Positions 6,781 through 24,523 of a DNA stretch of 25,410 nucleotides are shown piece after piece. The notes under the pieces are model-generated. The model saw only the letters and a program-made list of their open reading frames with translations. It was not told where the DNA came from and searched no databases. The DNA comes from a virus. Made by a program: the position numbers and the translations under genes. Position 1 is the first letter of the stretch. Every line of letters starts with the position of its first letter. The stretch lies in the IMG/VR virus record IMGVR_UViG_3300008516_000240, positions 1-25,410 of that record. One strand, 5' to 3'.

Positions 6781-6800
6781 GTGTGCGCTCCTTCAAATTC

Positions 6801-6880: not shown

Positions 6881-6928
6881 CGTTTTCGCATTTTCGTTCT
6901 CACGTACTCTCGCCCGCCGGGGGCGGGC

Positions 6929-8278
6929 CTATGCCGCCGCCAGTGTGTTGATGGCGTTGGCGTCCGCCTCGGCCGCGTCGGCGTGGATGATGCCGCGGAC
7001 GGCCACGAGGCCCTGGTCGAACCACACGTGCTCGCTCGATGCGATCTCCACGCCGCGGATGGAGCCGAAAAGGTAGGCGCTGCGGAGATCTCCGAAGCAG
7101 GCGAACTTGTCGCCCGTCGCCACGGCCGACTCGGGCGGGAAGAGCTGGCCCACAACCCAGGGGTAGCCCTTGAGGATCCGCCGGCCGGCGTCGTCGGCGC
7201 GGTCCCGGAAGACCCAGCCGCCGGTGGTGGTCCGCAGGTCCAGGAACGCCTCGCGGACACTGAGATGTCCGTACCATTTCGCCTGATTGTAAAACATGCC
7301 GATGGTCAGGCTGCGGCTGAAGCTGCTCACGTCGCCGGCGTCCATGAGGGCGATGGTGGTGTGGCCCGTGGCGGCGGCCGCCGAGCCGAGCGTCGCTGAC
7401 TTGAGCAGTCCGGTGATGCCGCCGTAGGTGGCCGTCCCGTCGCCGTTGACGACGGCATTGTCCAGCGCGTAGGCGATCGCCAGGGCGATCTCCAGGCCGA
7501 TGAGCTGCCCGAGGTCCGCCAGCAGGGCCGGGTCCAGGAACATCTCACGCGTCACGGCCGTCAGCGCGGCGAGCTTCTCGGCGTGGAGGGTCACCGTGTC
7601 GAAGGCGATGCCGGACTGGTTGATGGTCGCCCCGGCCGCCGTCCAGTAGGCGTTCATGCCCGCGGTGCGTTTGGGGACCGTCACCGTCCCCATCGTCGCC
7701 AGCGCCACGCGGCGGCATTCCGGGAAAACGGTGCCGTAGGTCTCGACGTTGCGGATCAGCTCGCGAAGGTACAGATTGGCCACGAGTTCGGCGCCGATGC
7801 CGGTGGCGGCCTCGATGTCCGGCGTCGCCTTTTGCTGGGCGGTCTTGGCCAGGTCCTTCGTGTAGCGGGGCAGCTGGTCGGGCGTGAGCGGGGCGCCCTT
7901 GCAGCCGGCCAGGTGGACGGCCATGAGGGCCCCGAACTCGGCTGCCATGTCGTCGTCGTAGAAGGCCCTCCCGTCGGCCAGCATCTCGCGCCGGGCCGAC
8001 CGGCCGGGGACGATCACGCCGCCGGCCTTGGCCAGGCCCAGGCCCAGCTTCTCGAACTGCCGCCGCGCCTTGACCTCGGCGTCCAGGTCGGCGCGGAGCT
8101 GTGTGATCTGGGTCTTGAGTTCGTCCGTCGCCCCGTAGCCGGCGGCGGCGGGATCGGCCAGGAGCCTGGCCTGCTTTTCCAGCAGCACCGCGACCTTGCC
8201 GTCGTCGCGGGCCTCGCCCTTGCCGAACTCGTCGGCGAGCTCCGCGGCGTTTGCTTTCAATGCCTCTATCGGTGTCAT
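6929..8278 (-). CDS. HK97-fold major capsid protein
   Basis: The start is the ATG at 8278 (MTPIEALKANAAELADEFGK), placed six bases after AAGGA. An ATG at 8284 is too close to the binding site and a GTG at 8302 lies in a repeat. The 449-residue product has a helical, charged N-terminal region (about residues 1-110) resembling the delta scaffold domain removed by the protease. A HK97 capsid core follows, with motifs AALTAVTREMFLD, DNAVVNGDGTATYGGITGLL and a C-terminal KGYPWVVG and VRGIIHADAA. It builds the icosahedral shell. It follows the prohead protease in transcription order, as in HK97-type head modules. It is unlike the Mu T protein, which points to a hybrid head module. Confidence 0.9.
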   Translation of the reverse strand: MTPIEALKANAAELADEFGKGEARDDGKVAVLLEKQARLLADPAAAGYGATDELKTQITQLRADLDAEVKARRQFEKLGLGLAKAGGVIVPGRSARREMLADGRAFYDDDMAAEFGALMAVHLAGCKGAPLTPDQLPRYTKDLAKTAQQKATPDIEAATGIGAELVANLYLRELIRNVETYGTVFPECRRVALATMGTVTVPKRTAGMNAYWTAAGATINQSGIAFDTVTLHAEKLAALTAVTREMFLDPALLADLGQLIGLEIALAIAYALDNAVVNGDGTATYGGITGLLKSATLGSAAAATGHTTIALMDAGDVSSFSRSLTIGMFYNQAKWYGHLSVREAFLDLRTTTGGWVFRDRADDAGRRILKGYPWVVGQLFPPESAVATGDKFACFGDLRSAYLFGSIRGVEIASSEHVWFDQGLVAVRGIIHADAAEADANAINTLAAA

Positions 8279-8297
8279 GTTCATTCCTTCCAGGACC

Positions 8298-8377
8298 GCC
8301 ACAGAGGCTCAGAGTTCACAGAGAACGGCTTTGTCTTTTCAAAAAAGAAGCCTCTGTGTCCTCTGTGTCTCTGTGGC
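8298..8377. repeat. Family C inverted repeat, full copy 3
   Basis: GCCACAGAGGCTCAGAGTTC pairs with CTCTGTGTCTCTGTGGC across a TTTTCAAAAAA centre. It occupies the gap between the protease and capsid genes. Confidence 0.9.
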
Positions 8378-8382
8378 CGTTG

Positions 8383-9309
8383 TCATGTTTTCGTGGCGGC
8401 CTTGAGTTTCGCGGCCGCTCGCTTTATCGCGTCCTGCCCCTCACTGTCGCCGTGCTTGGAGCCGCCGTCTCCGCCGGCCGGGGCACGTAGCGGCGGGCTG
8501 GCAAAAGCTCCGAGCGTGTCTGACGACAGGCTGATCGCCTCGGCCAGCTCGCTGAGCCGGTCGAGGATGAGTGCTTGTCGATTCTCGATTTGCTCCAGGC
8601 GATCACTGAGCGCTCCCGTGCCGGTCGCGGTTAAACGATCGGCCAACTTGCCCGCCAGGTCGAACTCGGCCATGGCCAGCATGATCTCGGCGGCGATGGT
8701 GGTGGCTAGTCCCTCGTCGGCCGCGCCCATCGCCCCCGCCGCCCGCATGGCGGCCAGGGCCTCGGGGTTGGCGGGCACGGGGACGGCGGAGATCTCCAGG
8801 AGTTCCGCCTTGGTGATGTGCCAGACCCTCTTTAACCCTTGACTCGGCGATCCCCGCTCCGCGGGTGGCCGCTTCGCGGCCTCGGCGGCTTTGCCGCCGG
8901 CCGCCGTGTCAAGGGCCCCGCGGTTCAGGTCCTCCCACTTGCCGTCGATGGGAATGAAGCCCACGGAAAACGCCCGCATGTGGCCCTCGCGGTAGAGCTG
9001 CTCGTACTCGCGGCCCAGTGCCGTGCCGGCGAACTTCATCTTGAAGATCAGCCCCTTTTCGGTGGCGTCGATCGTGGACGCCGAGCCGATCACGGGGCTG
9101 CTGCCGCTGGCCAGGCGGTGCTGGTGGGTGGCCAGTATCACCGGGTTGGCGCGGTAGCCGTCCAGGCTCTCGCCCCACGCGCCGGGATCGATGATCTCGT
9201 TGTCGCGGTCCAGGGCCCCGGTCGAGGCCACGGCGATCAGCTCGTCGCCCTCGAAGCCCTTGACCTGGGCGAACATGAATTTCGTCTGCTTAATCTGTTT
9301 CTTGGCCAT
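8383..9309 (-). CDS. Prohead protease (HK97 gp4-like, peptidase U35)
   Basis: The start is the ATG at 9309 (MAKKQIKQTKFMFAQVKGFE), overlapping the portal gene end by 20 bases. A longer upstream frame is a shadow of the portal gene. The product is 308 residues. His62 and His64 in ATHQHRLASGS and Ser115 in MRAFSVGFIP fit the U35 His/Ser catalytic sites. The region LLEISAVPVPANPEAL is the conserved end of the protease domain. The enzyme removes scaffold from the capsid during head maturation. Two repeats are read in frame: family D (about residues 132-158) and half of family B (about residues 225-233). The Glu/Asp-rich helical C-terminus may be a scaffold. Confidence 0.88.
   Translation of the reverse strand: MAKKQIKQTKFMFAQVKGFEGDELIAVASTGALDRDNEIIDPGAWGESLDGYRANPVILATHQHRLASGSSPVIGSASTIDATEKGLIFKMKFAGTALGREYEQLYREGHMRAFSVGFIPIDGKWEDLNRGALDTAAGGKAAEAAKRPPAERGSPSQGLKRVWHITKAELLEISAVPVPANPEALAAMRAAGAMGAADEGLATTIAAEIMLAMAEFDLAGKLADRLTATGTGALSDRLEQIENRQALILDRLSELAEAISLSSDTLGAFASPPLRAPAGGDGGSKHGDSEGQDAIKRAAAKLKAATKT
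8611..8636. repeat. Family B half repeat inside the protease gene
   Basis: The sequence CGCTCCCGTGCCGGTCGCGG followed by TTAAAC matches the right half of family B with a few changes. It is read in frame as part of RLTATGTGALSDRL. Confidence 0.7.
8836..8915. repeat. Family D cloverleaf-like repeat, in-frame copy in the protease gene
   Basis: The outer arms CCCTTGACTCGGCG (8836-8849) and CGCCGTGTCAAGGG (8902-8915) pair with one mismatch. They enclose three perfect hairpins, each with a three-base loop: CCCGC/TCC/GCGGG, GGCCGC/TTC/GCGGCC and CGGCGGC/TTT/GCCGCCG. The frame stays open through the element. Confidence 0.88.
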
Positions 9310-11884
9310 TTCTGTTCTCTGCGTTCTCCGCGCCCTCCGCGGTTGGGCTGTATGCCGCGAAGCCGCGAGCGAGGATGTTCTGGAGGTCCTCCAGGACCAC
9401 GCTCGATGAATCGAGCGTGCCGGCATGCGTCCCGATGTCTCGGGACGCATGGGCCGCCGGCCGCATCCTGCGGCCGACGGCCAGGCACTGACAGTTCACG
9501 ATCTCGGCCGGCGGGCCGGCGGGGTCGCGGGGGTGATCGAGTTCGGCGCCGTTGATCACCCAGCGCTGGCCCAGGGGTTTGGGGTGGGCGGCGTACTCGG
9601 CCTCGGCGGCCACGTGGGCGGGCCGGCGCTCGCCGGGCCCGCGGGAATGGATCCAGATCTCGTGGGTGAACACGCCCGCCGCCTGGCGGGTCCGATGCCG
9701 GGCGCGGCTCATGGCCTGGCCCACAGAGTTGCGGGCGGTGGTCAGGGCCCGGCCCCGGGCCTGGCCGGAGACGGCCTGGACGCGGTCGGTCAATTCGCGG
9801 GCGGTCTCGCCGGCGTCCATGCCCTCGATGAGGGTGCGGCGGAGCTGGCCCCGCGTGGCGCCATCGACCACCGTCGAGAACCGCAGCGCGTCCGATCGTA
9901 TGGCCGCCGCGATGGCCGGGTCGGCCTGCATGACTACGCGGGCGGTCTGGGCGGCCTCGGCCGGCAGCGCCGCCTCGTGGATGGTCTGCTCGACGCCGAG
10001 CTTGCTGGCCTCGCCCTGGAATTTCTCCAGGCGGCCCCTGAATTTGCCGAGCTCGCTCGCGTCGTCGAATACCTCGACAAGGATCCTCGCGACGATGTCC
10101 GCGGGCGCCTTCGCCCCGCGGACATCCACGCGCGATGAATCGCGCGTGCCGGCATGCGCACTTAAGTGCGCATGGGGCTCGTCCGCAAGCAGCTTGCGGA
10201 CGAGCCGGCACTGGGCCGCGCCCCGCGCCGCGTACATGGCCGCCTGGCGCTTGGCCAGCGGGGCCCAGGATTTCTCCCAGGCTCGCCACACTCGCTCCGC
10301 GGCGGCCTTGACGAGGGACTCGTCAAGGTCGCCGCTCACGCGCGATGAATCGCGCGTGCCGGCACGCGCAGTTAACTGCGCGTGTGCCGCCTCCTCGCCT
10401 TCAGCGAGAGGCGGCAGAACTTGCCCCTCGACCGCCTCCTCGGCGGTCTGGATCGAGATCGGCAGGAAGCCCCGCTGGTGCCAGGTCCGCTCCGGCAGCC
10501 CCAGATCGCACCAATCGTCCAGGTCGGCCAGGGGGACGCCCATGGCCCACATATCCTTGACAGTCGATATCTGCGACCGCCGCAGGTCCTGGAAAACCGG
10601 CACCGACTCCAGGTCGAACCACGCCTCCAGGCGGATGTCGAATCGCGGGCAGATCTCGTTATCGACCGCGTCGGCGAACCCGTCCAGCATGGGGCCGATG
10701 GTGTCCTGCCAAAACCGTTTCAATTCCTCCTGGACGAACGCCTCACTCCGCCCCGGCGTGGCGAGGAACCCGGCCACGGAGGCCGGCACGTCGCAGATCG
10801 CGCAGATCTCCTCGCGCGAGAGTTGCTTGCCCTCGGCGAACACCATCTCCTGGAGCGTCTGGGCGACACTGTCGTGCTTGAGGCCGCCCCAGAGTATGGC
10901 CAGCCGCCGGGCGTTGAGCGGGCCCTGATGCCGCTGGGCCCAGGTGGTTTTCATCTGGGCGTCGAGTTCGGGATTGTAGGGGACGTCCGTGGACAGGACC
11001 GTGCCGGGCTCGCAGGAGTTGGCGAACATCGCCGCGTTGTACATCGAGGCGTTGTAGTCCGAGATGATGGCCAGGTTGCCCGGCACCCGCGGCGACAGCG
11101 CCCCGTGGGGGTCGTAGGGGTCGTATATTTGGAACGTGATACACTCATCGAGGGCGACGGGGTACTCGCCGCCCTGGGGGGCGCGGAACTTCCAGCCGGC
11201 GAGCCGCTCGACGCGGCCGGCCTTGCTGACTATCGGCGAGCTTTTGGCGCCGGGGATGACGTACATGGTGATGGGCCGCCGGCCCGCCATCTCGTCGAAC
11301 AGCCAGTGGACGCGGCCGTGGACGTCGAGGTTAATGGCGGTGGCCCGAATAAAATCGTTCCACCGCTGCTCGGGGTTGGGGCGGGCGACGAAATCGACGA
11401 GTTCGCCGGATTCGAGGATCTCGCCCTCGCGGGCCTTCGGCGCCGCGTCGAGCCCCTTGTAGCGGCAGATCGAGCGGGCGTTAATCCGGCCCGCCCGGAC
11501 GTGCTTGAGGCCCCACAGCGCCCTCGTCGCGGCCGCCTCGGCGACGCTCACGCGCAGGGGCACGCGGGCGAGATTGCCCGCCTTGACGGAGACGCAGCGA
11601 TTGAACCACAGGCTCTGCTGATACGGCCGGTCAGGCCCGCCGAGGCCGGACCCGCCGGCGCCGGAGACGTCGGCGCCGCGAATGAACATCTGGGCGTACT
11701 GGCTGAGCGTGAGCTTCGCCGCCGGACTGAGGGCCATCGCGGCCGTGGCCATCGCCTCGACCCTTGACTCGGCGGACCCGGCTCCGCCGGGGGCCCCGAT
11801 AGCATCGGGGCCGGGCGGCGTCGCCGCCCCCGCCGTGTCAAGGGCCCGGGAGAAAATTTCTCGAAATGTGCGGAACAAACCCAT
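9290..11884 (-). CDS. HK97-type portal protein fused to a Mu F-like head morphogenesis domain
   Basis: The start MGLFRTFREIFSRALDTAG has AGGA five bases upstream. The product is 864 residues. Residues about 60-450 are portal-like: a VKAGNLARVPLRV segment, NPEQRWNDFIRATAINLDVH, then DVPASVAGFL and a helical region ending VDNEICPRFDIRLEAWFDL. Residues about 520-810 resemble phage Mu F/SPP1 gp7 minor head proteins: a helical region leading to TTARNSVGQAMSRARHRTRQ, an IHSRGPGERRPAH segment, and NCQCLAVGRR. The portal forms the DNA entry ring; MuF-like proteins assist head assembly. Four palindromic elements are read in frame (residues about 14-42, 500-516, 571-587 and 811-829). The C-terminal tail comes from a family C-like repeat. 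Fusion versus readthrough of two genes cannot be decided from sequence alone. Confidence 0.85.
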   Translation of the reverse strand: MGLFRTFREIFSRALDTAGAATPPGPDAIGAPGGAGSAESRVEAMATAAMALSPAAKLTLSQYAQMFIRGADVSGAGGSGLGGPDRPYQQSLWFNRCVSVKAGNLARVPLRVSVAEAAATRALWGLKHVRAGRINARSICRYKGLDAAPKAREGEILESGELVDFVARPNPEQRWNDFIRATAINLDVHGRVHWLFDEMAGRRPITMYVIPGAKSSPIVSKAGRVERLAGWKFRAPQGGEYPVALDECITFQIYDPYDPHGALSPRVPGNLAIISDYNASMYNAAMFANSCEPGTVLSTDVPYNPELDAQMKTTWAQRHQGPLNARRLAILWGGLKHDSVAQTLQEMVFAEGKQLSREEICAICDVPASVAGFLATPGRSEAFVQEELKRFWQDTIGPMLDGFADAVDNEICPRFDIRLEAWFDLESVPVFQDLRRSQISTVKDMWAMGVPLADLDDWCDLGLPERTWHQRGFLPISIQTAEEAVEGQVLPPLAEGEEAAHAQLTARAGTRDSSRVSGDLDESLVKAAAERVWRAWEKSWAPLAKRQAAMYAARGAAQCRLVRKLLADEPHAHLSAHAGTRDSSRVDVRGAKAPADIVARILVEVFDDASELGKFRGRLEKFQGEASKLGVEQTIHEAALPAEAAQTARVVMQADPAIAAAIRSDALRFSTVVDGATRGQLRRTLIEGMDAGETARELTDRVQAVSGQARGRALTTARNSVGQAMSRARHRTRQAAGVFTHEIWIHSRGPGERRPAHVAAEAEYAAHPKPLGQRWVINGAELDHPRDPAGPPAEIVNCQCLAVGRRMRPAAHASRDIGTHAGTLDSSSVVLEDLQNILARGFAAYSPTAEGAENAENRNGQETD
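9311..9344. repeat. Degenerate family C-like half repeat at the portal C-terminus
   Basis: TCTGTTCTCTGCGTTCTCCG followed by CGCCCTCCGCGGTT is a GC-shifted relative of the family C right arm. It is read as AEGAENAENRNG at the portal C-terminus and lies just upstream of the protease start. Confidence 0.6.
9380..9394. repeat. Inverted repeat next to family A copy 3
   Basis: CTGGAGG and CCTCCAG form a 7-bp inverted repeat with one central base, inside the portal gene. It directly precedes a family A copy. Confidence 0.55.
9398..9451. repeat. Family A twin-palindrome repeat, copy 3 (in frame in the portal gene)
   Basis: The first palindrome, CACGCTCGATGAATCGAGCG followed by TG, has TGAA at the centre on the plus strand (TTCA on the coding strand) in place of TTAA. 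The second is a longer hairpin with 12-base arms CATGCGTCCCGA and TCGGGACGCATG around TGTC. They are joined by CCGG. It is read as DIGTHAGTLDSSSV. Confidence 0.85.
9452..9482. repeat. Triloop hairpin following family A copy 3
   Basis: GGCCGCCGGCCGCA and TGCGGCCGACGGCC form a 14-bp stem with one mismatch around the loop TCC. It lies in the portal gene and abuts the family A copy. Confidence 0.75.
10094..10126. repeat. Hairpin preceding family A copy 4
   Basis: GATGTCCGCGGG (10094-10105) and CCCGCGGACATC (10115-10126) form a 12-bp perfect stem inside the portal gene. It abuts a family A copy. Confidence 0.8.
10127..10174. repeat. Family A twin-palindrome repeat, copy 4 (in frame in the portal gene)
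   Basis: CACGCGCGATGAATCGCGCG (plus TG) and CATGCGCACTTAAGTGCGCA (plus TG) are joined by CCGG. It is read as HAHLSAHAGTRDSSRV on the coding strand. The centre that would read GAT-TAA is GAT-TCA. Confidence 0.9.
10176..10206. repeat. 31-bp perfect palindrome following family A copy 4
   Basis: GGCTCGTCCGCAAGC and GCTTGCGGACGAGCC form a 15-bp stem around a single central base. It lies inside the portal gene, one base after the family A copy. Confidence 0.85.
10306..10328. repeat. Triloop hairpin preceding family A copy 5
   Basis: CCTTGACGAG and CTCGTCAAGG form a 10-bp perfect stem around the loop GGA in the portal gene, eight bases before family A copy 5. Confidence 0.75.
10337..10384. repeat. 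Family A twin-palindrome repeat, copy 5 (in frame in the portal gene)
   Basis: CACGCGCGATGAATCGCGCG (plus TG) and CACGCGCAGTTAACTGCGCG (plus TG) are joined by CCGG. It is read as HAQLTARAGTRDSSRV, again with TTCA at the centre that would otherwise be a stop. Confidence 0.9.
10385..10416. repeat. Hairpin following family A copy 5
   Basis: TGCCGCCT pairs with AGGCGGCA, and inside it CTCGC pairs with GCGAG around the loop CTTCA with one bulged base. It abuts the family A copy within the portal gene. Confidence 0.75.
11761..11844. repeat. Family D cloverleaf-like repeat, in-frame copy in the portal gene
   Basis: The outer arms CCCTTGACTCGGCGG (11761-11775) and CCGCCGTGTCAAGGG (11830-11844) pair with one mismatch. 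The three enclosed hairpins, all with three-base loops, are CCCGGC/TCC/GCCGGG, GGCCCCGAT/AGC/ATCGGGGCC and GGGCGGC/GTC/GCCGCCC. Stem sequences differ from the other copy but the architecture is the same. Confidence 0.9.
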
Positions 11885-12937: not shown

Positions 12938-14341
12938 TCAGGCAACACTGATATACGGCTGGGCCGGCCGGATCTGCCCGGCCCGCAGGGCCAGGGCGCA
13001 GGCCCATGCGATGTCGCAGTGGCTGCGGTCGTCGAGTGGGTTACCGGTCTCGGCCAACTTCAGGTTCGCCCCCTCGCCCTCCCGCTGGAGGGCGTACACG
13101 TCCGTGGCCACGAACTTCGCCGGCCCGCCCGTCGGCGGGATGGCCTGGCCCGCGTCGTCGTAGGTCGTCATCAGCAGCGAGCCGAGCTCGCGTTTCGATT
13201 TGCCGGAAAAGTCCAGCCCCTCCCAGCGGCCGGGATAGCGGGCCGCCAGTGTCTCGTTGGAGTCCATGCCCAACCCGGTCGAATCGCCCATGCCGACGCC
13301 GTCGCGGCGGGCGTCCATGGCCTCGCCGATGATCGTCCGCTGCAACGCGAACTCGGTATCGTGCATCACCACCAGCCGGCGGAGCCGCTTGAGGCCCGCC
13401 GGATCGGCGGTGTTGATCCACAGGACGCTCAGATGGCCCCGGCGGGCGACGTCCCAGCCCATCTCCGGCCGCCCGCCGTCGGCCAGGCCGGCGGCGGCCG
13501 CCCCGGCCCGCCAGCCCGCCCCGGCCTCGATCCGCAGCAGGTCGAAGGGCCGGCCGGCGCCCAACTCGCCGGCGGCGACGAGCTGGCCCCACTTGACCAG
13601 GGCCTCCAGGTCGCCGGAAAATTCCAGCTCGTACTCGCGCCGCCACCCAACCTCGTCGCCGTACACCCGCCGCAGATCCTCGATCGTGATCGGCCGGCCC
13701 CCCTCGCCCGTCAGGGGCATCCCCTCGGCGACGGCCTGGTGGATGTCCACGCGGTGGACGCTGTAGGTTTCGGGGGCGCTTACGAGTTCGAAAAATTTCG
13801 TGTTCTTGCCGCGGGGCGTGCTGATGACCACCACGCGGAATCCGCGCGTGGCGAGGGGAAACACGACCCGCCAGTGATCGTAACCGCCGCCGGGAAACAG
13901 GCCGAACTCGGTGAATATGATGTTGCCGGTCAGGCCGGCCAGTGTGTCGGGGTCGCGGCCGGGCAGGGCGGTCACCGACCCGCCGCCGGGCAGTGTCAGG
14001 GTGTGGGAGCGGCGCGAAAACCAGTGGTCGATCCAGCGATCGTACTCGCTGTACTCGGCGCTCGCCTGGCCGATCCCGCCGGTGATTTCCAACGCCCGCT
14101 TGAAAACGTCCGAGACCTTCACGCACTTGGCGAACGTCGCGTCGGCCTGGCGCTGGGTCAAGCTGACGATATACCAGTCCTGGCCCGTCCGCAGGGCGTG
14201 ATCGACGGCCAGAGCGGCGCTCGTGAAATCCTTGCCGGACTGGCGGCACCAGCAGGCGACCAGCACCCGCGCCGGGTCGGCAAAGAATCGCTGCTGGTAT
14301 GGGTACAGGCGGATGACGGATTGTTCGGTGGCGGTGGTCAT
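12938..14341 (-). CDS. Terminase large subunit (Mu gp28-like)
   Basis: The product is 467 residues. The ATPase half has a Walker A-like WCRQSGKDF (residues 31-39), a Walker B-type strand ending in Glu145 (GNIIFTEFGLF) and a coupling motif ISTPRGKN (173-180). The nuclease half has three acidic positions of the RNase H-like fold: Asp297 (EMGWDVARRGHLSVLW), Asp353 (GMGDSTGLG) and Asp443 (DDRSHCDIAW). It packages DNA into heads and cuts it. In Mu-like phages it follows the DUF3486 gene, as here. The next virion gene is 1 kb away because the plus-strand cassette lies between. No clear ribosome binding site is seen; tandem TGACG units precede the start. Confidence 0.9.
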   Translation of the reverse strand: MTTATEQSVIRLYPYQQRFFADPARVLVACWCRQSGKDFTSAALAVDHALRTGQDWYIVSLTQRQADATFAKCVKVSDVFKRALEITGGIGQASAEYSEYDRWIDHWFSRRSHTLTLPGGGSVTALPGRDPDTLAGLTGNIIFTEFGLFPGGGYDHWRVVFPLATRGFRVVVISTPRGKNTKFFELVSAPETYSVHRVDIHQAVAEGMPLTGEGGRPITIEDLRRVYGDEVGWRREYELEFSGDLEALVKWGQLVAAGELGAGRPFDLLRIEAGAGWRAGAAAAGLADGGRPEMGWDVARRGHLSVLWINTADPAGLKRLRRLVVMHDTEFALQRTIIGEAMDARRDGVGMGDSTGLGMDSNETLAARYPGRWEGLDFSGKSKRELGSLLMTTYDDAGQAIPPTGGPAKFVATDVYALQREGEGANLKLAETGNPLDDRSHCDIAWACALALRAGQIRPAQPYISVA

Positions 14342-14454: not shown

Positions 14455-15093
14455 TCACGCCGCGTCTCCGAAGACCGCCCGGCGGATCTCGGCGATCTGC
14501 TCGGGGGTGAGTCCGCGGCCGTCGGCGGCCGGGGCGGTCGCCGCCTTCATCTGCTCGTCGAATCGGCGCTGCATCTCCGCCACCCGCGCCCCGATCAGAT
14601 CCGTCTCGGCGGCCGTCTTCCGCAGCCGCCCGAGCACGTCGATCATCTGGATGATCTGCCCGCCCGTCAGGTCGCGCAGGGCCGCCGCCGGCAGCTCGCT
14701 CAATGCCTCGAACAGGACCTGTGCGGCCAGGGCCGTGCCGCCGGCCAGGACGTCGGCGACGCCCGCGGCCGTGGCGGCCTCCATCACCGCCCGCGCCCGC
14801 TCGGCGGCCAGCCAGATCGCCTCCTCGCGGTCGATCAGGGCCCGGCGGTTGCGGGCGATGCTCGAGCGGCCGACGCGGCAGCCCAGGTCGCCCAGCCAGG
14901 CGGTGAGATCGTCCAGCGTGTGCGTCTGCGTATCGCGCAGCCGCCGCTCGTACTGGGCCCACAACTTGTCGCGGGCGGCGCGGGCGCCCTCGTGAGCAGC
15001 CACCGCCTCCGGCGTGGGATCGGCCAGCCCCGCCTGGCGGCCGGCCAGGCGGGCTAACTCGTCGTACGGCTTGTAACGGGTCATCTTCGGCAC
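14455..15093 (-). CDS. Mu gp27-like (DUF3486) protein, probable small terminase role
   Basis: The product is 212 residues, starting at a GTG (15093) with GGAG 11 bases upstream; an ATG nine bases later (15084) is an alternative. The segment HTLDDLTAWLGDLGCRVGRS followed by SIARNRRALIDR matches the DUF3486 pattern, a helix-turn-helix-like N-terminus ahead of a long helical region. The remainder is helical (AEMQRRFDEQMKAAT). The gene sits directly upstream of the terminase large subunit, as gp27 does before gp28 in Mu-like phages. A small terminase or DNA-recognition role is widely assumed for this position but not shown here. Confidence 0.75.
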   Translation of the reverse strand: MPKMTRYKPYDELARLAGRQAGLADPTPEAVAAHEGARAARDKLWAQYERRLRDTQTHTLDDLTAWLGDLGCRVGRSSIARNRRALIDREEAIWLAAERARAVMEAATAAGVADVLAGGTALAAQVLFEALSELPAAALRDLTGGQIIQMIDVLGRLRKTAAETDLIGARVAEMQRRFDEQMKAATAPAADGRGLTPEQIAEIRRAVFGDAA

Positions 15094-15183: not shown

Positions 15184-15507
15184 GGCGCCCGTGAACTCGT
15201 CGATCTTCGCCCAGGGGCAGCCGGCGCGGAAAAAGTCCCGGCCACGGCTCTTGATTTTGTACCCCTTCATGGGCATGGGCCCGACGTCCGGCACGTCGTG
15301 GACGCCGATCATGCCGTCCTCGATCAGGTCGGCGATCTCGGCGTCGATCTCCTCGCGGCCGTAGGGCACGCGGCCGTCGGAGAAGGCGTCGTAAATGTGG
15401 CGGGCCAGGACGGCGATGTCGGGGCTGGCCGCGCCGCAGTTGTGCAGCACGTGCAGTATGACCTCGCGGATGGAGCGGCTACGCAGGACCGCGTGGCTGA
15501 GCGCCAT
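15172..15507 (-). CDS. Small winged-helix protein (Mu gp26-like, ArsR-type)
   Basis: The start chosen is the ATG at 15507 (MALSHAVLRSRSIREVILHV), which has GGAG six bases upstream. The 111-residue product looks like a winged helix: a helical part, IDAEIADLIEDGMIGVHDVP as recognition helix plus wing, and a final strand at KGYKIKSRGRDFFR. In Mu-like phages a small ArsR-type winged-helix gene lies between the DUF2730 and DUF3486 genes, exactly as here. Its role in those phages is not established. The gene overlaps the upstream membrane-protein gene by 29 bases, so the two are likely cotranscribed. Confidence 0.72.
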   Translation of the reverse strand: MALSHAVLRSRSIREVILHVLHNCGAASPDIAVLARHIYDAFSDGRVPYGREEIDAEIADLIEDGMIGVHDVPDVGPMPMKGYKIKSRGRDFFRAGCPWAKIDEFTGAERA

Positions 15508-15922
15508 TGTGTTTCTCCAGGGCGGCCATCCGGCCGCGCATGTTCTCAATCTTCCCCACCGCGTCGGTCACCCGGCCGTGGACCTGCTCGATGCGGTCGG
15601 CCTGGCGGCTATCCATCTCGTCCAGCCGCGTCAGCACCGCCTGCTGCGACCCGGCGGCGTCGGCTATGAGCCGGGCGATGTCGCCCCGGCTGGCGTAGTT
15701 GTGGGCGGCGCGGAGCTCGCACTCGGTGCGCTGCTGGCGGGCCTCGGCGATGGCGTCGGCGTGGTCGCGGTCGCCGGTTTCGAGCTTCTCCACCCGCTTG
15801 GCGATGTCGCGGAGCTGGTTTTTCAGGACAAAGACGGTGATCCCGCCGATGGCCAGGCCGATGATCACGGAGCTGATGAGCTTTTCCGCGATGCCCTCGA
15901 TGGAGATCTCGGCGAGGTTCAT
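15479..15922 (-). CDS. Membrane-anchored coiled-coil protein (Mu gp25/DUF2730-like)
   Basis: The product is 147 residues. An N-terminal membrane helix (about residues 14-34, core SSVIIGLAIGGITVFVL) is followed by a long charged coiled coil (RDIAKRVEKLETGDRDHADA onward). This layout matches DUF2730 proteins such as Mu gp25 and precedes the winged-helix and gp27-like genes in the same order as in Mu. It is also the shape of an inner-membrane spanin, which would place it in lysis; the order favours the gp25 reading. It is the first gene after the late promoter and starts just after a hairpin (15934-15950). Confidence 0.68.
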   Translation of the reverse strand: MNLAEISIEGIAEKLISSVIIGLAIGGITVFVLKNQLRDIAKRVEKLETGDRDHADAIAEARQQRTECELRAAHNYASRGDIARLIADAAGSQQAVLTRLDEMDSRQADRIEQVHGRVTDAVGKIENMRGRMAALEKHNGAQPRGPA

Positions 15923-16300: not shown

Positions 16301-16540
16301 TCAGCTTTCGCTATTGCTGGTAATCTGGCCTCGCAAAACCAGAAGGCACAACGCGCTAAGGAGCCAGGCCACGCTGTCCAGGGCGACCCGAATTGCCTCA
16401 AGCAGGCCGAGCTGATCGGCTGGCTCGCCCCAGCGTGGGCCGCGGAGGCCAGGGACGAAAAAAGCCCCCGCGAATGCCATCCCCGCCAGCAGTAAAAGGA
16501 TGAACCTCGCGTCGCGCCGCTTGTCTCTCTGGATGCTCAT
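16301..16540 (-). CDS. Small two-helix membrane protein cotranscribed with the repressor
   Basis: The 79-residue product has two membrane segments: residues 13-29 (FILLLLAGMAFAGAFFV) and about 50-70 (core LDSVAWLLSALCLLVL). A short charged loop lies between them and the N-terminus is basic. Its ATG overlaps the repressor stop codon (ATGA), so it is translationally coupled to the repressor and likely expressed in the lysogen. That context suits a superinfection-exclusion or other lysogen-expressed membrane protein. A holin is the alternative, since it is on the same strand as the late genes. No family is recognised. Confidence 0.65.
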   Translation of the reverse strand: MSIQRDKRRDARFILLLLAGMAFAGAFFVPGLRGPRWGEPADQLGLLEAIRVALDSVAWLLSALCLLVLRGQITSNSES

Positions 16541-17529: not shown

Positions 17530-17563
17530 TGTGTGACCTCTGCGCCCTCTGTGTCCTCTGTGT
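17530..17563. repeat. Family C half repeat
   Basis: GTGTGACCTCTGCGCCCTCT followed by GTGTCCTCTGTGTA is a diverged right arm of family C, between two early genes. Confidence 0.7.
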
Positions 17564-17971: not shown

Positions 17972-20206
17972 ATGTCTGACCCGGCCGCGACATCTGCGTT
18001 TAACCGCGATCCGGCGGGGAGCGCGCTTCCCTATGGGGCGCGGCTAAACCCGACGGCGGGCAGCTTCACCGTCGCCGAGGCGGCCGCCGTCCTGGGCCTG
18101 ACGGCCCGGCACGTCCAGCGGCTCTGCCGGACGGGCGAGATCGCCGCGACGCGCGGCCCCGCCGGCCAGTGGCTGATCCCCCCCGACGCTCATCCCGCCC
18201 TTCGCCTCGCTCGCGGCCGCCCCGTCGGGCCGGTGGGCATCGCCCGGCCCGACGGGGCTCCCGGCGAGCCGGGACTCGACTGCCCCGCCCTGGCCGGCCT
18301 GTCGGCGGCCAAGCGGGCGACCGTCCATGCCCGGTACCAGTCCGTCCGCAACTACGAGGCGGCCCTGCGCCATCGCCCCGCCGGCCAGACGGTCGGCCAG
18401 TTCGCGGACATGTGGGTCGCCGGCTGGAACCTCACCCGCCCCGATGGCCCCCGGCTCAGCGTCCCCACACTATACAGATGGCGCCGCCGCCTGGCCGCCG
18501 GCGGCGTAGCCGCCCTCGCCGACGGGCGGGGCTACTGGGGCCCGGCCGTGTGCAGCGGGGCGGCGTGGGACCTGTTCTCTGGCATGTACCTCTCGCAGGC
18601 CCGCCCCCACGTGCCCCGGCTGCACCAATACGTCGCCGCCCAGGCCCAGATCAACGGCTGGGACTGGCCCGCCCTGCGGACGGTCCAGCAGTGGGTTGCC
18701 GAGCGGCTGGACCCCAAACTCGCCGCCCTGGGGCGGCAGCCGAAAAAATTCCGCGACCGGCACAACCCCCACATCGAGCGCGACTGGTCACAGGTCCCCG
18801 CGATGGGCTGCTGGGTCGGCGACCACCGCCAGCTCGACGTGCTCTGGCCTCGCCATCTCTGGAACGCCCGCAAGCAGCGGTGGGACTGGCTGTACGCGCG
18901 GCCCTGGCTGACGATGTTCCTGGACGCCCGCTCCTGGATGCCGGCGGCGTGGAGCATCTGCTTCGACTCACCCGACGGCAACCGCGTCATGGCCGCATTC
19001 GCCCGCGGGGTGGCCGCGCACGGCCGCCCGGACAGATTGTATCTCGACAACGGCAAGGACTTTCGGATGGTCCGCTTCGCCGGCGGTCGGCGGCGGAACC
19101 CCCGCCGGGGCGAGAAGATCGTGCCCGAAAAGACCATCGCCCCCCTGCTGGAGGTCCTGGGCGTGGGTGTGACCTGGGCCCTGCCGTTCAACGCCCGGGC
19201 GAAGGTCGTCGAGCCGTGGTTCCGCATCCAGGCCGAACAGTTCGACAAGTGCTGGGAAACCTACTGCGGCCGCTCGCCGGAGGCCCGCCCCGAGGACCTC
19301 AAAAAGCTCCGCGGCAAGGCCGAGGCGGTCGCGGCGGCACACGCCGACGCCGAGACCATGGACGCCATCCGCTACCGCGGCGCCCCCCAGGCCGTCCGCG
19401 ATCGGCTGGTGCTGGAGCCGCTGGCCCGAGCGTTCGAGAGCTGGATAACCGCCGATTACGCTCGCCGCGAAAGCCCGTCGAAGGCCGCCGGGGGGCTATC
19501 GGCCGGCGCCGCGTTCCGGCAATTGCGGGCCGACGATTTCGCCGTCCGCCGCCCGGCGGCCGAGGACCTGGCCCTGCTGCTGCTGCCGTCCGTGGCCGTC
19601 CGCGTCGAGGCCAACGGCGTGTACGTCCGCCCGTTCGGCCGCCACTACTGGTCGGACGACGAGGAGTTTCAGCGGCGGCGGGGCGCCAGCGGCCGCGACG
19701 CAGCCCGAAAAATCGTGTACCGCTACGACCCCGACGAGCCCTCATTAATATATGTGTTCGACCGGCGGGGCAAATTCCTCTGCACGGCCGGGCCCTACAT
19801 CGGCGAGGGCGTGCACCCGTTCGCCGCGCCGGGCGGAGCCGACGCCGACAAGCTGGAGGCCGCCATCGTCCTCCAGCGGCGGACGGCCAAGGCGGCCCGG
19901 CGGCGCGTCGCCAGCCTCCACGACTTCGCAAACAACCATCTCCTGTTGGCGCACGCGGCGGCGGGGCGGCGAGATGAAACGCCTGCATCCGCCACCGCCG
20001 CCGCGCCGAGAGTGATGCAGTTTGAGCCGCACATCGCGGCCGCCGCCGCCGCCGGCCGCAAACAACAGGACCAGCGCGCCGCCCGCCAGGCGGCGCGGGA
20101 TTTCTTCACAAAGACCGGCACGGACGATGCCGGCGATCCGCCGGCCGCGGATGCCAAACCCCCCACGCGGGCGATCGACCTGCTGGGAGACAACGATGAT
20201 GGATAG
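17972..20206 (+). CDS. MuA-like DDE transposase
   Basis: GGAGGA lies nine bases before the ATG. The product is 744 residues, somewhat longer than Mu A. An N-terminal HTH of MerR/excisionase type lies at about residues 31-70 (FTVAEAAAVLGLTARHVQRL). The catalytic triad is Asp284 (GDHRQLDVLW), Asp359 (LYLDNGKDF) and Glu414 (AKVVEPWF). The spacings of 75 and 55 residues are close to Mu A (D269, D336, E392). A C-terminal region with charged helices follows. It inserts and replicates the phage by transposition. Family B is read in frame at residues 9-26 (core AFNRDPAGSALPYG). Two GC-rich hairpins at 18219-18274 fall in the linker after the HTH. Confidence 0.93.
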   Translation: MSDPAATSAFNRDPAGSALPYGARLNPTAGSFTVAEAAAVLGLTARHVQRLCRTGEIAATRGPAGQWLIPPDAHPALRLARGRPVGPVGIARPDGAPGEPGLDCPALAGLSAAKRATVHARYQSVRNYEAALRHRPAGQTVGQFADMWVAGWNLTRPDGPRLSVPTLYRWRRRLAAGGVAALADGRGYWGPAVCSGAAWDLFSGMYLSQARPHVPRLHQYVAAQAQINGWDWPALRTVQQWVAERLDPKLAALGRQPKKFRDRHNPHIERDWSQVPAMGCWVGDHRQLDVLWPRHLWNARKQRWDWLYARPWLTMFLDARSWMPAAWSICFDSPDGNRVMAAFARGVAAHGRPDRLYLDNGKDFRMVRFAGGRRRNPRRGEKIVPEKTIAPLLEVLGVGVTWALPFNARAKVVEPWFRIQAEQFDKCWETYCGRSPEARPEDLKKLRGKAEAVAAAHADAETMDAIRYRGAPQAVRDRLVLEPLARAFESWITADYARRESPSKAAGGLSAGAAFRQLRADDFAVRRPAAEDLALLLLPSVAVRVEANGVYVRPFGRHYWSDDEEFQRRRGASGRDAARKIVYRYDPDEPSLIYVFDRRGKFLCTAGPYIGEGVHPFAAPGGADADKLEAAIVLQRRTAKAARRRVASLHDFANNHLLLAHAAAGRRDETPASATAAAPRVMQFEPHIAAAAAAGRKQQDQRAARQAARDFFTKTGTDDAGDPPAADAKPPTRAIDLLGDNDDG
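17996..18049. repeat. Family B full repeat, in frame at the transposase N-terminus
   Basis: GCGTTTAACCGCGATCC and GGGGCGCGGCTAAAC form the arms around an inner GGGGAGCGCGCTTCCC hairpin. It is read as AFNRDPAGSALPYGARLN without any stop. Confidence 0.88.
18219..18274. repeat. Two adjacent hairpins in the transposase linker
   Basis: GCCCCGTCGGGCC pairs with GGCCCGACGGGGC around an inner GGGC/ATC/GCCC triloop (18219-18258). TCCCGGC/GA/GCCGGGA (18259-18274) follows immediately. They are read in frame as a Gly/Pro-rich linker (RPVGPVGIARPDGAPGEPG). Confidence 0.75.
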
Positions 20207-20288
20207 CCACAGAGACACAGAGTTCTCAGAGATTGCTTTTCCAAAACAAAAACAGAGCCGTTCTCTGAGAACTCTATGCCTCTGTGGC
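20206..20288. repeat. Family C inverted repeat, full copy between transposase and MuB-like genes
   Basis: GCCACAGAGACACAGAGTTC pairs with CTATGCCTCTGTGGC across an A-rich centre. It begins on the last base of the transposase stop codon and ends before the MuB-like start. Confidence 0.9.
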
Positions 20289-20328
20289 CGTTATCAAATC
20301 GAGGATGGATCCTCGCCCGAGGGTCCCG

Positions 20329-21465
20329 ATGAAAAACAAGGCGGCTGACCTGCTGAGGGAGGCATCGAAAATGGCCATGGAAGGGCCACTCACCGACGCC
20401 CAGCGGCGCGGAATCATCAGCCAGGTGGCCGCGATCCAGGCGGCCGAGGACATCAGCAATTCCGCCATCGCCCGGGCGGCGCTGCAATGCTCGCCGAGCG
20501 TCTGGTCGCAGATCCGCAACGGCACCTACGCCGGCGACGTGGACCGCTACCTGCACCGCGCCCAGCAGTGGCTGCGCGACCGCATCGAGCGCCGCGAGGC
20601 CCCGCCCACCGACTACGTCGCCACGCGGATCGGCCGGTCGGTGATGAAGATCTGCCGGCTGGCCTGGTCCGAGCCCACCATCGGGATCGTCGTCACCCCC
20701 AGCGGGGCCGGCAAGACCATCGCCCTGCGCGAGTTCGCCCGCCGGCGGGGCGAGCGGGCGATGTACCTGGCGGCGGGCGTCGCCTTCGCGACGCCGCGGG
20801 CACTGCTGTCCGAGATCGCCATCAAAATGCACCTGGACGTCGCCCCCAGCTACACCCTCGGCACCTACTACCAGTCCGTGCGCCAGCGGCTGGCCGACTA
20901 CTACGGCCGCGGGAAATTCGATCCCTACTGCGTGCTGGTGGATGAGGCGACCGCGCTGTACCCACAGTCCAAACATCTGCTGCGCAATCTGCACGACGAT
21001 CCCGACGTGCGGCTGGCCCTGGTCCTGGCCGACACCGCCCGACTCGACCGCGACCTCCGCGGCCGGACGGGCGCCGCCCAGTACGAGCAGCTCCGCAGCC
21101 GCGCCGGGGCCCAATACGTCCAGGCCGCCACCGACGAGATCTCCGCCGCCGACTCCACCGCCGTGGCCGACTCGATCCTGGCCGCCCTGGGCCACGGCAA
21201 GAAACTCCGCCGCGAGGCCTACAGCTACCTGCATCGGCTGGCACAGGGCGACGGCAAGTTGCGAAACGTCCAGCAGCGGCTGCACGCGGTCGCCGAACTG
21301 GCCCGCCAGAGCCGCTGCCGGGCCGACTACTCCGTCGCCCAGCTCGATTACGCCGCCGACATCGTCGGGGCGAAATGGCAGATGGACTGGTCCGGGCGGA
21401 CGCCGCCCTTCGGGGCGGGACAACAGCCACAGAGGACACAGAGCTCACAGAGAAAGGCCGGGTGA
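20329..21465 (+). CDS. MuB-like AAA+ ATPase (target DNA activator)
   Basis: The start chosen is the ATG at 20329 (MKNKAADLLREASKMAMEGP), with GAGGG upstream; the ATG at 20305 is too close to its site. The product is 378 residues. A helical N-terminal DNA-binding region (about residues 20-65; NSAIARAALQCSPSVWSQIR) resembles the MuB HTH. Walker A is TPSGAGKT (123-130) and Walker B is VLVDEA (202-207). A sensor-like segment (LALVLADTARL) follows. Such proteins bind target DNA and stimulate the transposase. The C-terminal tail QQPQRTQSSQRKAG is encoded by a family C half repeat and is probably not ancestral. Confidence 0.9.
   Translation: MKNKAADLLREASKMAMEGPLTDAQRRGIISQVAAIQAAEDISNSAIARAALQCSPSVWSQIRNGTYAGDVDRYLHRAQQWLRDRIERREAPPTDYVATRIGRSVMKICRLAWSEPTIGIVVTPSGAGKTIALREFARRRGERAMYLAAGVAFATPRALLSEIAIKMHLDVAPSYTLGTYYQSVRQRLADYYGRGKFDPYCVLVDEATALYPQSKHLLRNLHDDPDVRLALVLADTARLDRDLRGRTGAAQYEQLRSRAGAQYVQAATDEISAADSTAVADSILAALGHGKKLRREAYSYLHRLAQGDGKLRNVQQRLHAVAELARQSRCRADYSVAQLDYAADIVGAKWQMDWSGRTPPFGAGQQPQRTQSSQRKAG
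21426..21454. repeat. Family C half repeat encoding the MuB-like C-terminus
   Basis: GCCACAGAGGACACAGAGCT followed by CACAGAGAA is the left arm of family C. It is read in frame as PQRTQSSQR, and the next gene starts 12 bases after it. Confidence 0.85.
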
Positions 21466-21691: not shown

Positions 21692-21725
21692 AAAAACGCC
21701 TCTGTGATCTCTGTGTCTCTGTGGC
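21643..21725. repeat. Family C inverted repeat, full copy 5
   Basis: GCCACAGAGGACACAGAGTT pairs with CTCTGTGTCTCTGTGGC around TTAAAAAAAC. The left arm is the C-terminal coding part of the upstream gene; the right arm ends 11 bases before the endolysin ATG. Confidence 0.88.
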
Positions 21726-21735
21726 AGTCTTTGAA

Positions 21736-22356
21736 ATGAAACAGCAACGGGACAAATTCTGGTGGATCGTGATAGTCGCCTACGGCGCGGTCGGCGTCTG
21801 GGCCGTCGCCGTTTTCGCGATCGCCATGGACAGATGCGAGTCGCGCACGGCCGGTCTCCCTCCACCGGCCACGGGGGCGGCGGAGGTCCTCCTCCTACCT
21901 CACCGCCGCCCCACGCGCGGCGCGGCATCGCCGCCGGCAACCCCTGGCAAGCCGGTGCCGGCGGCGACCGCGAGGGACGCCCGGGCCGTCCTTAAGGGCG
22001 GCCCGGCGCGGCCCTCAATCGCCGGACTGTTCGCGGCCCTCCGGGCGCACGAGAGCCTCGACGGCCGAAAACCCGTCGGCGACGGCGGCCGCAGCCTGGG
22101 CGACTACCACATCGGCCGGGCCCACTGGTCCGACGGCTGCGAGACCGGCCGGGTCAGTTGGCCCTACGACAAGTACGTCTGGAGCCGCCCCCACTGCGAG
22201 GCGGTAATGATCTGGTATTGGCTGCGTTGGTGTCCGCGGGCCCTGCGAGAGGGCGACTGGGAGACCCTCGCCCGCGTCCATAACGGCGGGCCCCGAGGGG
22301 CCGAAAAATCCTGCACGCTGACGTACTGGCGGAGAATCCAGGAGAGGCTGAGATGA
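21736..22356 (+). CDS. Membrane-anchored endolysin resembling i-type (destabilase) lysozyme
   Basis: This 206-residue protein has an N-terminal membrane segment (about residues 9-31, FWWIVIVAYGAVGVWAVAVF), a Pro/Ala-rich linker and a C-terminal domain (95-206). The domain contains AALRAHESLDG with Glu106, VGDGGRSLGDYHIGRAHWSD with Asp116, and RVHNGGPRGAEKSCTLTYWR. The last matches the i-type lysozyme pattern (RIHNGGPxGCxxxxTLGYW). Glu106 and Asp116 fit the Glu/Asp pair of that family. It would cut peptidoglycan, perhaps as a signal-anchor endolysin. A GTG at 21721 is an alternative start. The linker holds a 26-bp palindrome (21981-22006). It is in the early arm, an unusual place for lysis. 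Confidence 0.75.
   Translation: MKQQRDKFWWIVIVAYGAVGVWAVAVFAIAMDRCESRTAGLPPPATGAAEVLLLPHRRPTRGAASPPATPGKPVPAATARDARAVLKGGPARPSIAGLFAALRAHESLDGRKPVGDGGRSLGDYHIGRAHWSDGCETGRVSWPYDKYVWSRPHCEAVMIWYWLRWCPRALREGDWETLARVHNGGPRGAEKSCTLTYWRRIQERLR
21981..22006. repeat. Palindrome with TTAA centre in the endolysin linker
   Basis: CCGGGCCGTCCTT and AAGGGCGGCCCGG are inverted copies with one mismatch pair and a TTAA centre, read in frame in the disordered linker. It resembles half of family A in layout. Confidence 0.6.
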
Positions 22357-23180
22357 GCTACCGCGGCAACCTCGACAGGCTGGAGGCGGACGCCGAAACC
22401 GTCGTCGAGCGATTGCTGTCCGACCGCGCGACGATCACCTCGATCATGCGCGAGTACCACGTCGGCTACGGGCCGTTGCGGCGACTGTATCACGCACGCA
22501 CGACGGCGGCCCAGCGGGCCGAGGCCAGCCATCGCCGATGCGTGCGGGCCGGCAAGGCCGGCGGCTTCCAGGTCGGCCACGTCCCCTGTACTGCGGGGCG
22601 GCGAGGGATCCACCGCTCGCCCGCCACGGAGTTCAAGACCGGCTGCCTTCGTGGCCAGGCGGCCCGCAATTGGCGGCCGCTGGGCTCGATTACGGTCCGC
22701 AACGACAAGCCGCTCAAACGCCAGGCCGGCCAGCGAGGCCGGGCAAGGCGCCGGCGGCGCCGAAAATGGATCAAGGTCGCCGACGCCGGCCGCATCCAGG
22801 ACCGCTGGATACCCCTGGCTCGATACGTCTGGGCCCGCGCCCGCGGGCCGATCCCGCCGCGAATGTGTGTAATCCACCTCGACGGGGATACGCTTAATTG
22901 CTCGCTGGACAATCTGATGCTGGTGAGCCGGCGCGGTCACCTGGCGGCGCAGATGGCCCGGGACCCCGGCATGAATCGCCGCCTCCGGCGGGCGGCCGGC
23001 GCCGCCGCGAAGCTCCGCCACCATCGCAATCGGGAGCTGCGGCGGCTAAACGGCCCAGTCGCGACCGTCTGGGAATGCCGCGCCTGCGGAAACGAGATCG
23101 GTGGAAAGGTTGGACCCGGCCGTTGTAATAAATGCGGCGGCTCGGTCTTCGAGAAGATCGCCCGGAGGCTAACGGCATAA
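22353..23180 (+). CDS. HNH endonuclease-like protein with zinc ribbon
   Basis: This 275-residue protein overlaps the endolysin by ATGA. The N-terminal part has a helical segment (about 15-50) like a homeodomain or HTH. The middle resembles phage HNH proteins: an EFKTGCLRG segment, then WIPLARYVWARARGPIPPRM and CVIHLDGDTLNCSLDNLMLV, with His175 and Asn187 as the likely HNH residues. The C-terminus holds CRAC and CNKC pairs, a zinc ribbon. Such proteins may be free-standing homing endonucleases or domesticated nucleases, for instance helping DNA packaging. A target is not evident. Being in the early arm argues against a packaging role. Confidence 0.78.
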   Translation: MSYRGNLDRLEADAETVVERLLSDRATITSIMREYHVGYGPLRRLYHARTTAAQRAEASHRRCVRAGKAGGFQVGHVPCTAGRRGIHRSPATEFKTGCLRGQAARNWRPLGSITVRNDKPLKRQAGQRGRARRRRRRKWIKVADAGRIQDRWIPLARYVWARARGPIPPRMCVIHLDGDTLNCSLDNLMLVSRRGHLAAQMARDPGMNRRLRRAAGAAAKLRHHRNRELRRLNGPVATVWECRACGNEIGGKVGPGRCNKCGGSVFEKIARRLTA

Positions 23181-23838: not shown

Positions 23839-24089
23839 CCCAGACGATGCATTTCCTCGATCCCCGCCAGTCCAACCGGGCGGCGAGCTGCGTTCATTCG
23901 CTGCCGGGTTACGGCGAGTTCGGCAACGGCGTGTTCCTACCGGTTTATCTCTGCTCGCGAACGCGGGTCGCCGAGGACCTCCCGGTATGCCTGCTGATTC
24001 TCGGCGATCCGCTGACACGCTGCCCGCTGGAATGCACCCACTACTACCCCTACGTCGGCCACGAGGAGATCCCCGCGGAGCAAAGATGA
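23835..24089 (+). CDS. Small early protein (unknown)
   Basis: The 84-residue product begins MTQTMHFLDPRQSNRAASCV, with its start overlapping the previous stop by ATGA and its end overlapping the GemA-like start by ATGA. It has four Cys and a beta-like pattern (GVFLPVYLCS; VCLLILGDPL), with a His/Tyr-rich end (CTHYYPYVGHEE). It might bind metal. No family is recognised. Confidence 0.6.
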   Translation: MTQTMHFLDPRQSNRAASCVHSLPGYGEFGNGVFLPVYLCSRTRVAEDLPVCLLILGDPLTRCPLECTHYYPYVGHEEIPAEQR

Positions 24090-24523
24090 GCCTGACCAAC
24101 GGTCAAAAACGCGCCCTGCACGCCGCCGCCCGCATGGCGGGCGTGTCCGAGGCCGACCGCCGGCTGATCCAGCGGAACATCGGCGGGTTCCACTCGGCGG
24201 CCGACCTCACGGCGACGCGGTACGGGTTCATCTGTGTGATGGCCCATTACGAGGAGATGTGCGCCGGCCGCCTCGGCCACAACACACTCGGCTACTGGGC
24301 CGGCGAGGCCCGCCGCGCCGAGCCTGAGGACGCCCTGCGATACGCCATCCGCCGCGAGGCGGAGAGGCTGGGCTGGCGAGACGAGCAGGTGGACCGGTTC
24401 CTGGCCAGCGATCACATGTCCAGCGGCCGACACCGCCGCGTCCGCGACGCCCCGCCCTACTGGCTGCACCGGCTGCTGTCCGCCCTCAAAACCATGGCCG
24501 CTCGGCAGGAGGCCATCGGATGA
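24086..24523 (+). CDS. Probable GemA-like (Mu gp16, DUF1018) protein
   Basis: The 145-residue product starts MSLTNGQKRALHAAARMAGV. The opening (QKRALHAAARMAGVSEADRR) fits the DUF1018 start pattern of two helices before a loop, and the second half is helical (LRYAIRREAERLGWRDEQVD). GemA proteins modulate host gene expression and DNA supercoiling in Mu and sit in the early or middle region, as here. The match is by pattern only, without any alignment, so it is provisional. Both neighbours overlap by ATGA. Confidence 0.6.
   Translation: MSLTNGQKRALHAAARMAGVSEADRRLIQRNIGGFHSAADLTATRYGFICVMAHYEEMCAGRLGHNTLGYWAGEARRAEPEDALRYAIRREAERLGWRDEQVDRFLASDHMSSGRHRRVRDAPPYWLHRLLSALKTMAARQEAIG

Follow-up and report, generated by a model that had tools for sequence, protein, structure and literature searches.

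The analysed stretch of DNA (the window; positions 1 to 25,410 of the IMG/VR record IMGVR_UViG_3300008516_000240, 25,410 nucleotides) is part of a Mu-like transposable phage, since it encodes both a transposase A and the transposition protein B. Its early genes run rightward and its structural genes leftward (Table 1). The late arm occupies the minus strand between 2.4 and 15.1 kb and contains, besides the genes given in Table 1, neck, head-tail adaptor and protease genes. Its true coding strand was found by frame composition; the plus-strand ORFs w9552, w10382 and w12827, which matched the related record L002 in tblastn, were dismissed as shadows of the minus-strand portal and terminase genes. 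The gene under study encodes a lysozyme-like protein and is situated away from this late arm, with the transposition genes (phrog_310, phrog_296) upstream and the HNH gene (phrog_1891) downstream, in accordance with the original prediction, which had been made from the DNA sequence alone. Its stop codon overlaps the start of the HNH gene in the ATGA at 22353-22356, and a GTG at 21721 represents an alternative start that would add five residues. The conserved early/middle gene further downstream occupies the place of gp16/GemA in Mu and matches phrog_286 weakly. Direct and inverted copies of a CACAGAG-type repeat are located at 17538-17562, 20206-20288, 21416-21456, 21633-21682 and 21700-21725, in or beside the gaps around the MuB and lysozyme genes, and peptide traces similar to this repeat (AENAE) occur in the related records L084 and L086.

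Table 1. Genes and protein features of the Mu-like phage in the window.
Feature	Position	Strand	Basis or remark
Major head protein, late arm	6929..8302	-	minus-strand ORF scan
Portal and head-morphogenesis fusion, late arm	9290..11884	-	minus-strand ORF scan
Terminase large subunit, late arm	12938..14341	-	minus-strand ORF scan
Terminase small subunit, late arm	14455..15093	-	minus-strand ORF scan
Protein with N-terminal transmembrane segment and coiled coil, encoded near the terminase small subunit, possible lysis partner	15479..15922	-	hydropathy, position
79-aa protein, two hydrophobic segments seen by eye, resembling a holin only in shape	16301..16540	-	head of late arm
Mu-type transposase A	17972..20206	+	phrog_310, 6e-71
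MuB-like transposition ATPase	20284..21465	+	phrog_296, 1e-33
i-type-lysozyme-like membrane-anchored protein	21736..22356	+	206 aa; sequence, PDB search, model
Single transmembrane segment, residues 9-31	21760..21828	+	hydropathy
Pro/Ala-rich linker, residues 32-93	21829..22014	+	sequence
Lysozyme domain, residues 94-206	22015..22353	+	alignment, profile search, model, structure comparison
Glu106, predicted as catalytic acid, opposite Glu34 of the leech enzyme	22051..22053	+	alignment
Asp116, predicted second catalytic carboxylate, aligned with leech Asp46	22081..22083	+	alignment
HNH endonuclease-like gene	22353..23180	+	phrog_1891, 7e-28; ATGA overlap with lysozyme gene
Conserved early/middle gene, position as gp16/GemA in Mu	23987..24523	+	weak phrog_286 match, E 0.014

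The lysozyme ORF proved to be real as described, which is confirmed by its sequence, its PDB matches and the profile. The protein starts with a short basic N-terminus that is followed by one strong transmembrane segment, the Pro/Ala linker and a C-terminal lysozyme domain of 113 aa. The residues K2, R5 and K7 together with one Asp precede the hydrophobic segment, from which an orientation with the N-terminus inside and the C-terminus outside is predicted. The best 20-mer of the segment begins at residue 11, has a mean Kyte-Doolittle hydropathy of 2.47 and contains eight Ala or Gly. For the 19-mer from the same residue a mean of 2.50 was calculated, the top value among the plus-strand ORFs scanned, and the membrane anchor proposed earlier is supported.

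When the window protein was compared as a single sequence with the PDB (phmmer), four distinct i-type lysozyme sequences were found at E-values of 6e-8 to 9e-5. The domain alone was also searched and was closest to i-type rather than to c-type, g-type, SLT or other lysozymes; its sequence matches in the PDB were confined to the i-type (destabilase) lysozymes. When the window protein was used as a single query against viral and genome collections, no relatives were returned, and short peptide patterns of the protein also missed the family, which was retrieved by the alignment with PDB chains. With patterns derived from this alignment, at least 569 related stretches were collected from the viral contigs of IMG/VR, and the 80 best were retained. 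The non-redundant set comprises 42 rows with less than 80% identity, except for L003, which was dropped by the automatic filter and re-added by hand, while L055 was left out because its ORF continues from a helicase. In this locus an ORF of 676 aa starting at 707 encodes a helicase-like protein that runs into the i-type lysozyme domain, and in its near relative L050 the lysozyme domain begins at its own Met.

The 42-row viral profile matched leech destabilase in the PDB at E 2.9e-22 and clam lysozymes down to 4e-16. Together with the four single-sequence matches, this indicates that the kinship with i-type lysozymes is not due to chance. The next family was c-type lysozyme at E 0.18, with most of these matches starting at their residue 35, opposite profile column 13, which corresponds to Glu106 of the window protein. 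All 42 viral rows match the Pfam family Destabilase (PF05497) at E <= 0.1 (best 3.5e-12), and seven also match SLT (best 2e-6). The profile search that had been recommended against the destabilase family was hence positive for the viral members, but the window protein itself stays below the Pfam gathering cut-off of 26.2 bits with 13.6 bits at full length and 15.8 bits for the domain alone; 18.2 bits were obtained for the homologue in L086. The window domain contains four cysteines and the median among the 42 viral domains is one, whereas 14 are given for destabilase in the available text of PMC10126035, so that the many disulfide-forming cysteines of animal i-type enzymes are missing from the window domain. 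Because it is poor in cysteines and scores below the Pfam cut-off, the domain is classed here as a divergent viral branch of the i-type (destabilase) lysozymes and not as a canonical member.

The conservation of the active site supports the kinship with i-type lysozymes. Profile columns 13 (Glu106) and 23 (Asp116) lie opposite positions 14 and 26 of the 8BBU chain, equated here with residues 34 and 46 of destabilase. According to the available text of PMC10126035, Glu34 and Asp46 form the muramidase dyad of the leech enzyme. Both carboxylates are invariant among the 42 non-redundant viral rows as well as in all 81 rows before the removal of near-copies. The patterns used to collect the viral homologues cover the HNGG and GxSxG blocks and neither carboxylate, although D116 is only two residues away from one pattern, hence the invariance was not forced by the selection. 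The block RVHNGGPRG...TLTYW, on which the earlier assignment was based together with the Glu/Asp pair, is present at residues 180-198. An AlphaFold2 model of the domain, built from the 42-row alignment, reached a pLDDT of 93.6 and a pTM of 0.87, with the lowest pLDDT (75-77) in model residues 11-30, which include the predicted dyad and its loop. With this model, ranks 1 to 6 in Foldseek were all i-type lysozymes. Superposition (VIA) gave Z-scores of 14.8 to 13.8 for the i-type chains, followed by lytic transglycosylases with 9.9; no other family of lysozymes or transglycosylases matched better by sequence or by structure, which would have spoken against the assignment. Collectively, the domain shares fold, family kinship and conserved active-site residues with i-type lysozymes, and Glu106 and Asp116 are predicted to be the catalytic pair of a muramidase. 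It has the catalytic Glu/Asp and the HNGGPxG and YW motifs in common with the animal enzymes (leech destabilase 8BBU/8BBW; clam 2DQA, 3AB6 and 4PJ2; PF05497), but differs from them by its membrane anchor, its four domain cysteines, a structural identity of 24-28% and the low Pfam score.

The transposase is shared with six other records at 39-46% identity. Across 80 transposase-bearing loci, the lysozyme was found in L086 only (L033 represents the same contig), where the order of transposase, MuB, lysozyme, HNH and gp16-like gene is the same as in the window. The records L002 and L084 span the same interval without the lysozyme gene, in L084 with a Mu Gam gene there (phrog_491, 1e-25). The lysozyme is therefore carried by two of the four records in which the interval is covered and is not essential to this type of phage. 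An independent capture of the gene by the window phage and L086 is not claimed, because the tree separates the two but a joint clade was not rejected (AU p 0.057).

Candidate partners for lysis were sought in the late arm. The transmembrane coiled-coil protein at 15479-15922 is encoded at the map position of the gp25 releasin in Mu. Counterparts, all on the minus strand and close to the terminase small subunit gene, exist in L002 (6247-6837), L083 (6882-7439), L084 (5442-6335), L085 (6643-7359) and L086 (5482-5859); they are alike in position and build, with a sequence match in L002 only. Among the six related transposable phages this protein occurs with or without the lysozyme. Its assignment as a DUF2730 releasin was rejected, because PF10805 was matched in none of the seven records at E <= 1 and is absent from the Pfam matches. 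The counterpart in L002 weakly resembles an Rz-like spanin (4.9e-5). No family match was obtained for the protein at 16301-16540, and neither of the two matched a named lysis family, though both may possibly be lysis partners of the lysozyme. In the late arm of L086, a 259-aa lipoprotein-like coiled-coil protein with an LTGC box recognised by eye (6431-7210, minus strand) is spanin-like in shape. No other peptidoglycan hydrolase was recognised among the window ORFs scanned.

The domain had been regarded as rarely noted in phages. This holds true for annotation, but not for occurrence, since the at least 569 matches in IMG/VR show that the destabilase-type domain is not rare in viruses. In a collection of 50,697 phage records, tblastn with the window protein gave no match, and three more typical family members as queries matched Cellulophaga and Microcystis phages (8, 8 and 1 records). 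One tblastn query against 72,556 plasmids found no family match. Among cultured Cellulophaga phages, an i-type-like lysozyme is encoded in L205 (4944-5375) and L207 (4962-5393). The lysozyme QQV89760.1 of the isolated tailed Cellulophaga phage Calle_1 has the same domain and carries the GenBank note 'Destabilise-like protein', while its homologues in phi38:1 and phi40:1 are annotated as hypothetical. It differs from the window protein by its flavobacterial host, an identity of about 25% to the viral profile and neighbours that include RtcB and a peptidase; no lysis gene is annotated around it.

In genome contigs, the 42-row profile detected 26 loci, mostly from Planctomycetota and Verrucomicrobiota, and those nearest to the window protein belong to two Planctomycetales MAGs (61% and 57%). 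Homologues were present in 5 of 392, 11 of 387 and 1 of 398 sampled genomes, centre genome included, from the phyla of L166, L172 and L171, respectively. The window clusters in the tree with L003, L004, L162 and L163 (99/91), and the host of the phage is probably a planctomycete. L162 and L163 have five and six genes in common with the viral loci, the lysozyme counted, and may be prophages. A search of 14 genomes showed the lysozyme and a terminase match together on one contig in three of them only, at a distance of about 6 kb in G545 and far apart in G520 and G004. The loci L164, L166 and L167 encode, near position 10000, i-type lysozymes with signal-peptide-like N-termini on long planctomycete contigs; no further gene is shared with the viral loci fetched, and these lysozymes are apparently bacterial genes. 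Two Pacearchaeota MAG contigs also carry i-type-like lysozymes (L182, 2798-3346; L184, 9806-10348), being either archaeal or mis-binned. Three animal rows are placed among viral and Pacearchaeota rows (97/79) in this tree, which has long branches, is unrooted and kept 124 columns, hence no claim on the origin of the animal family is derived from it.

The destabilase domain in phages is thus already known but unstudied in the literature searched, where no study of viral or planctomycete i-type lysozymes was found among open-licence PMC papers. In the available text of PMC10126035, a bacterial and viral metagenomic branch of Destabilase was noted but kept out of the tree. Destabilase is also found in the accessible part of PMC13237592 (PhaLP 2.0) among the rare domains of predicted lysins that are potentially lysin-associated or misannotated. 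The metagenomic members of the former and the domains of the latter presumably belong to the same branch as the window protein, but they are not characterised in the available texts, which describe neither host range nor anchor nor gene context.

A hydrophobic segment in front of the domain is common among the viral homologues. With a simple threshold on hydropathy it was called in 36 of the 42 rows, the window included, whereas among neighbouring proteins, judged on their first 60 residues, 16 of 183 had one. Four of the six rows without a segment have fewer than 15 residues before the domain at the chosen start, and two are sub-threshold. The families most often found within two genes of the viral copies are primase/helicase, DNA polymerase and RusA (102 proteins; first 25 of 105 families), and those around the closest copies are methyltransferases, primase and integrase (81 proteins; first 25 of 87 families). 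Two of 83 neighbours of the closest copies and 23 of 125 two-gene neighbours were not aligned; the latter are four L018 repeats and otherwise mostly antisense or very short ORFs, as judged by eye. Genes with hydrophobic segments were not enriched near the viral homologues (25 of 220 within 1.5 kb versus 92 of 706 further off), and a terminase gene was located within 5 kb of the lysozyme in none of 19 records (about 4.0 expected, sd 1.7; 2 if the records are circular). Hence, the viral copies do not reside in recognisable lysis cassettes, none of which was seen around the homologues examined.

In our opinion, the gene rather probably encodes an exported, membrane-tethered muramidase-type enzyme, most likely the endolysin, of a Mu-like phage that probably infects a planctomycete. 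The N-terminal segment would direct the lysozyme through Sec and hold it with the N-terminus in and the C-terminus out in the inner membrane, where Glu106 and Asp116 would cut the glycan strands of the host peptidoglycan. The endolysin might wait tethered at the wall and be released or become free to act once the membrane is perturbed late in infection, similar to the SAR endolysin gp22 of Mu. In this regard, the available text of PMC9239132 describes gp22 as membrane-tethered, with the lysozyme motif E-X8-D-X5-T and 10 of 20 weakly hydrophobic residues in its segment. The window phage resembles Mu as a transposable phage with an N-terminal transmembrane anchor after basic residues and with a coiled-coil membrane protein that is encoded close to the small terminase subunit. 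However, gp22 is a late gene, whereas the window lysozyme has an i-type domain and its gene lies in the early arm, with the structural genes on the other strand, i.e. outside a late lysis region, and DUF2730 was not found. The anchor has the basic residues of a SAR domain, but it is strongly hydrophobic, unlike a clear SAR domain. The endolysin role suggested before is likely, while the early placement and the lack of a recognised lysis cassette leave it unproven. Among the prokaryotic and viral members found, none has a known enzyme activity. As the contig is incomplete, a second endolysin may be encoded beyond it.

The main rival is an early-acting wall enzyme that would be exported during replication and would loosen or remodel the host peptidoglycan, prepare slow holin-independent lysis, or counter competing phages or neighbours. 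It is considered unlikely. In its favour, both carriers, the window and L086, have the gene in the early arm with MuB on one side and HNH on the other, and other viral homologues are most commonly surrounded by genes for primase/helicase, DNA polymerase, RusA resolvase and methyltransferase. The same direction is indicated by the distance from the terminase, with which the lysozyme shares the strand in 10 of 19 records compared to 17 of 19 for the DnaB-type helicase. However, the DnaB-type helicase is near no more often than chance predicts, as 5 of 19 records have it within 5 kb and 3.9 were expected, and the neighbour families were counted around the lysozyme copies alone. Moreover, some known endolysins are encoded among DNA-metabolism genes, for example gp3.5 of T7.

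It appears improbable that the gene is a moron or a lysogeny gene from which the host benefits, for instance one for an exported lysozyme used in competition, comparable to the signal-peptide i-type lysozymes that planctomycetes encode on their chromosomes. The apparently bacterial homologues in L164, L166 and L167 and the absence of the gene from two of the four relatives with the interval covered would fit such a role, but the window protein is membrane-anchored instead of secreted and its gene is joined to a phage HNH gene, and the family is widespread in viral contigs. Leech destabilase has isopeptidase as second activity, for which Glu34, His112 and Ser51 are the proposed residues in the available text of PMC10126035; a catalytically dead or non-muramidase relative, e.g. 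an isopeptidase or binding protein, is nevertheless very improbable here. Ser120 and His182 of the window protein align with Ser51 and His112 and would fit such a relative, but position 120 is Ser in just 36 of 81 rows and both muramidase carboxylates are invariant. An exported, tethered endolysin remains the preferred interpretation.

Environmental viruses encode a large family of such enzymes that has been little studied, and the window gene is one of its members. The i-type fold with few cysteines and a signal peptide or anchor is common in these viruses and is found among bacteria mainly in Planctomycetota and Verrucomicrobiota, while i-type lysozymes have otherwise been studied as immune and digestive enzymes of animals. 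The available text of PMC10945688 reports a planctomycete phage that is released without lysis, and the terms endolysin and lysozyme were not found in that text. As a speculation that we consider doubtful at present, many viruses of Planctomycetota and Verrucomicrobiota might use exported i-type lysozymes made together with early or replication genes and without a holin cassette, and the prokaryotic and viral branch might be nearer than any relative studied so far to the lineage from which the i-type lysozymes of animals arose. The question of the origin of the animal family is reopened, because the recent phylogeny in PMC10126035, according to its available text, set the viral and bacterial branch aside. 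The existence of peptidoglycan in planctomycetes was long doubted. If the above speculation is true, it would mean a holin-independent breach of the wall in exactly such bacteria, and if the lysozyme lyses cells, it would offer a way to study the opening of planctomycete cells by viruses as well as a disulfide-poor lysozyme scaffold.
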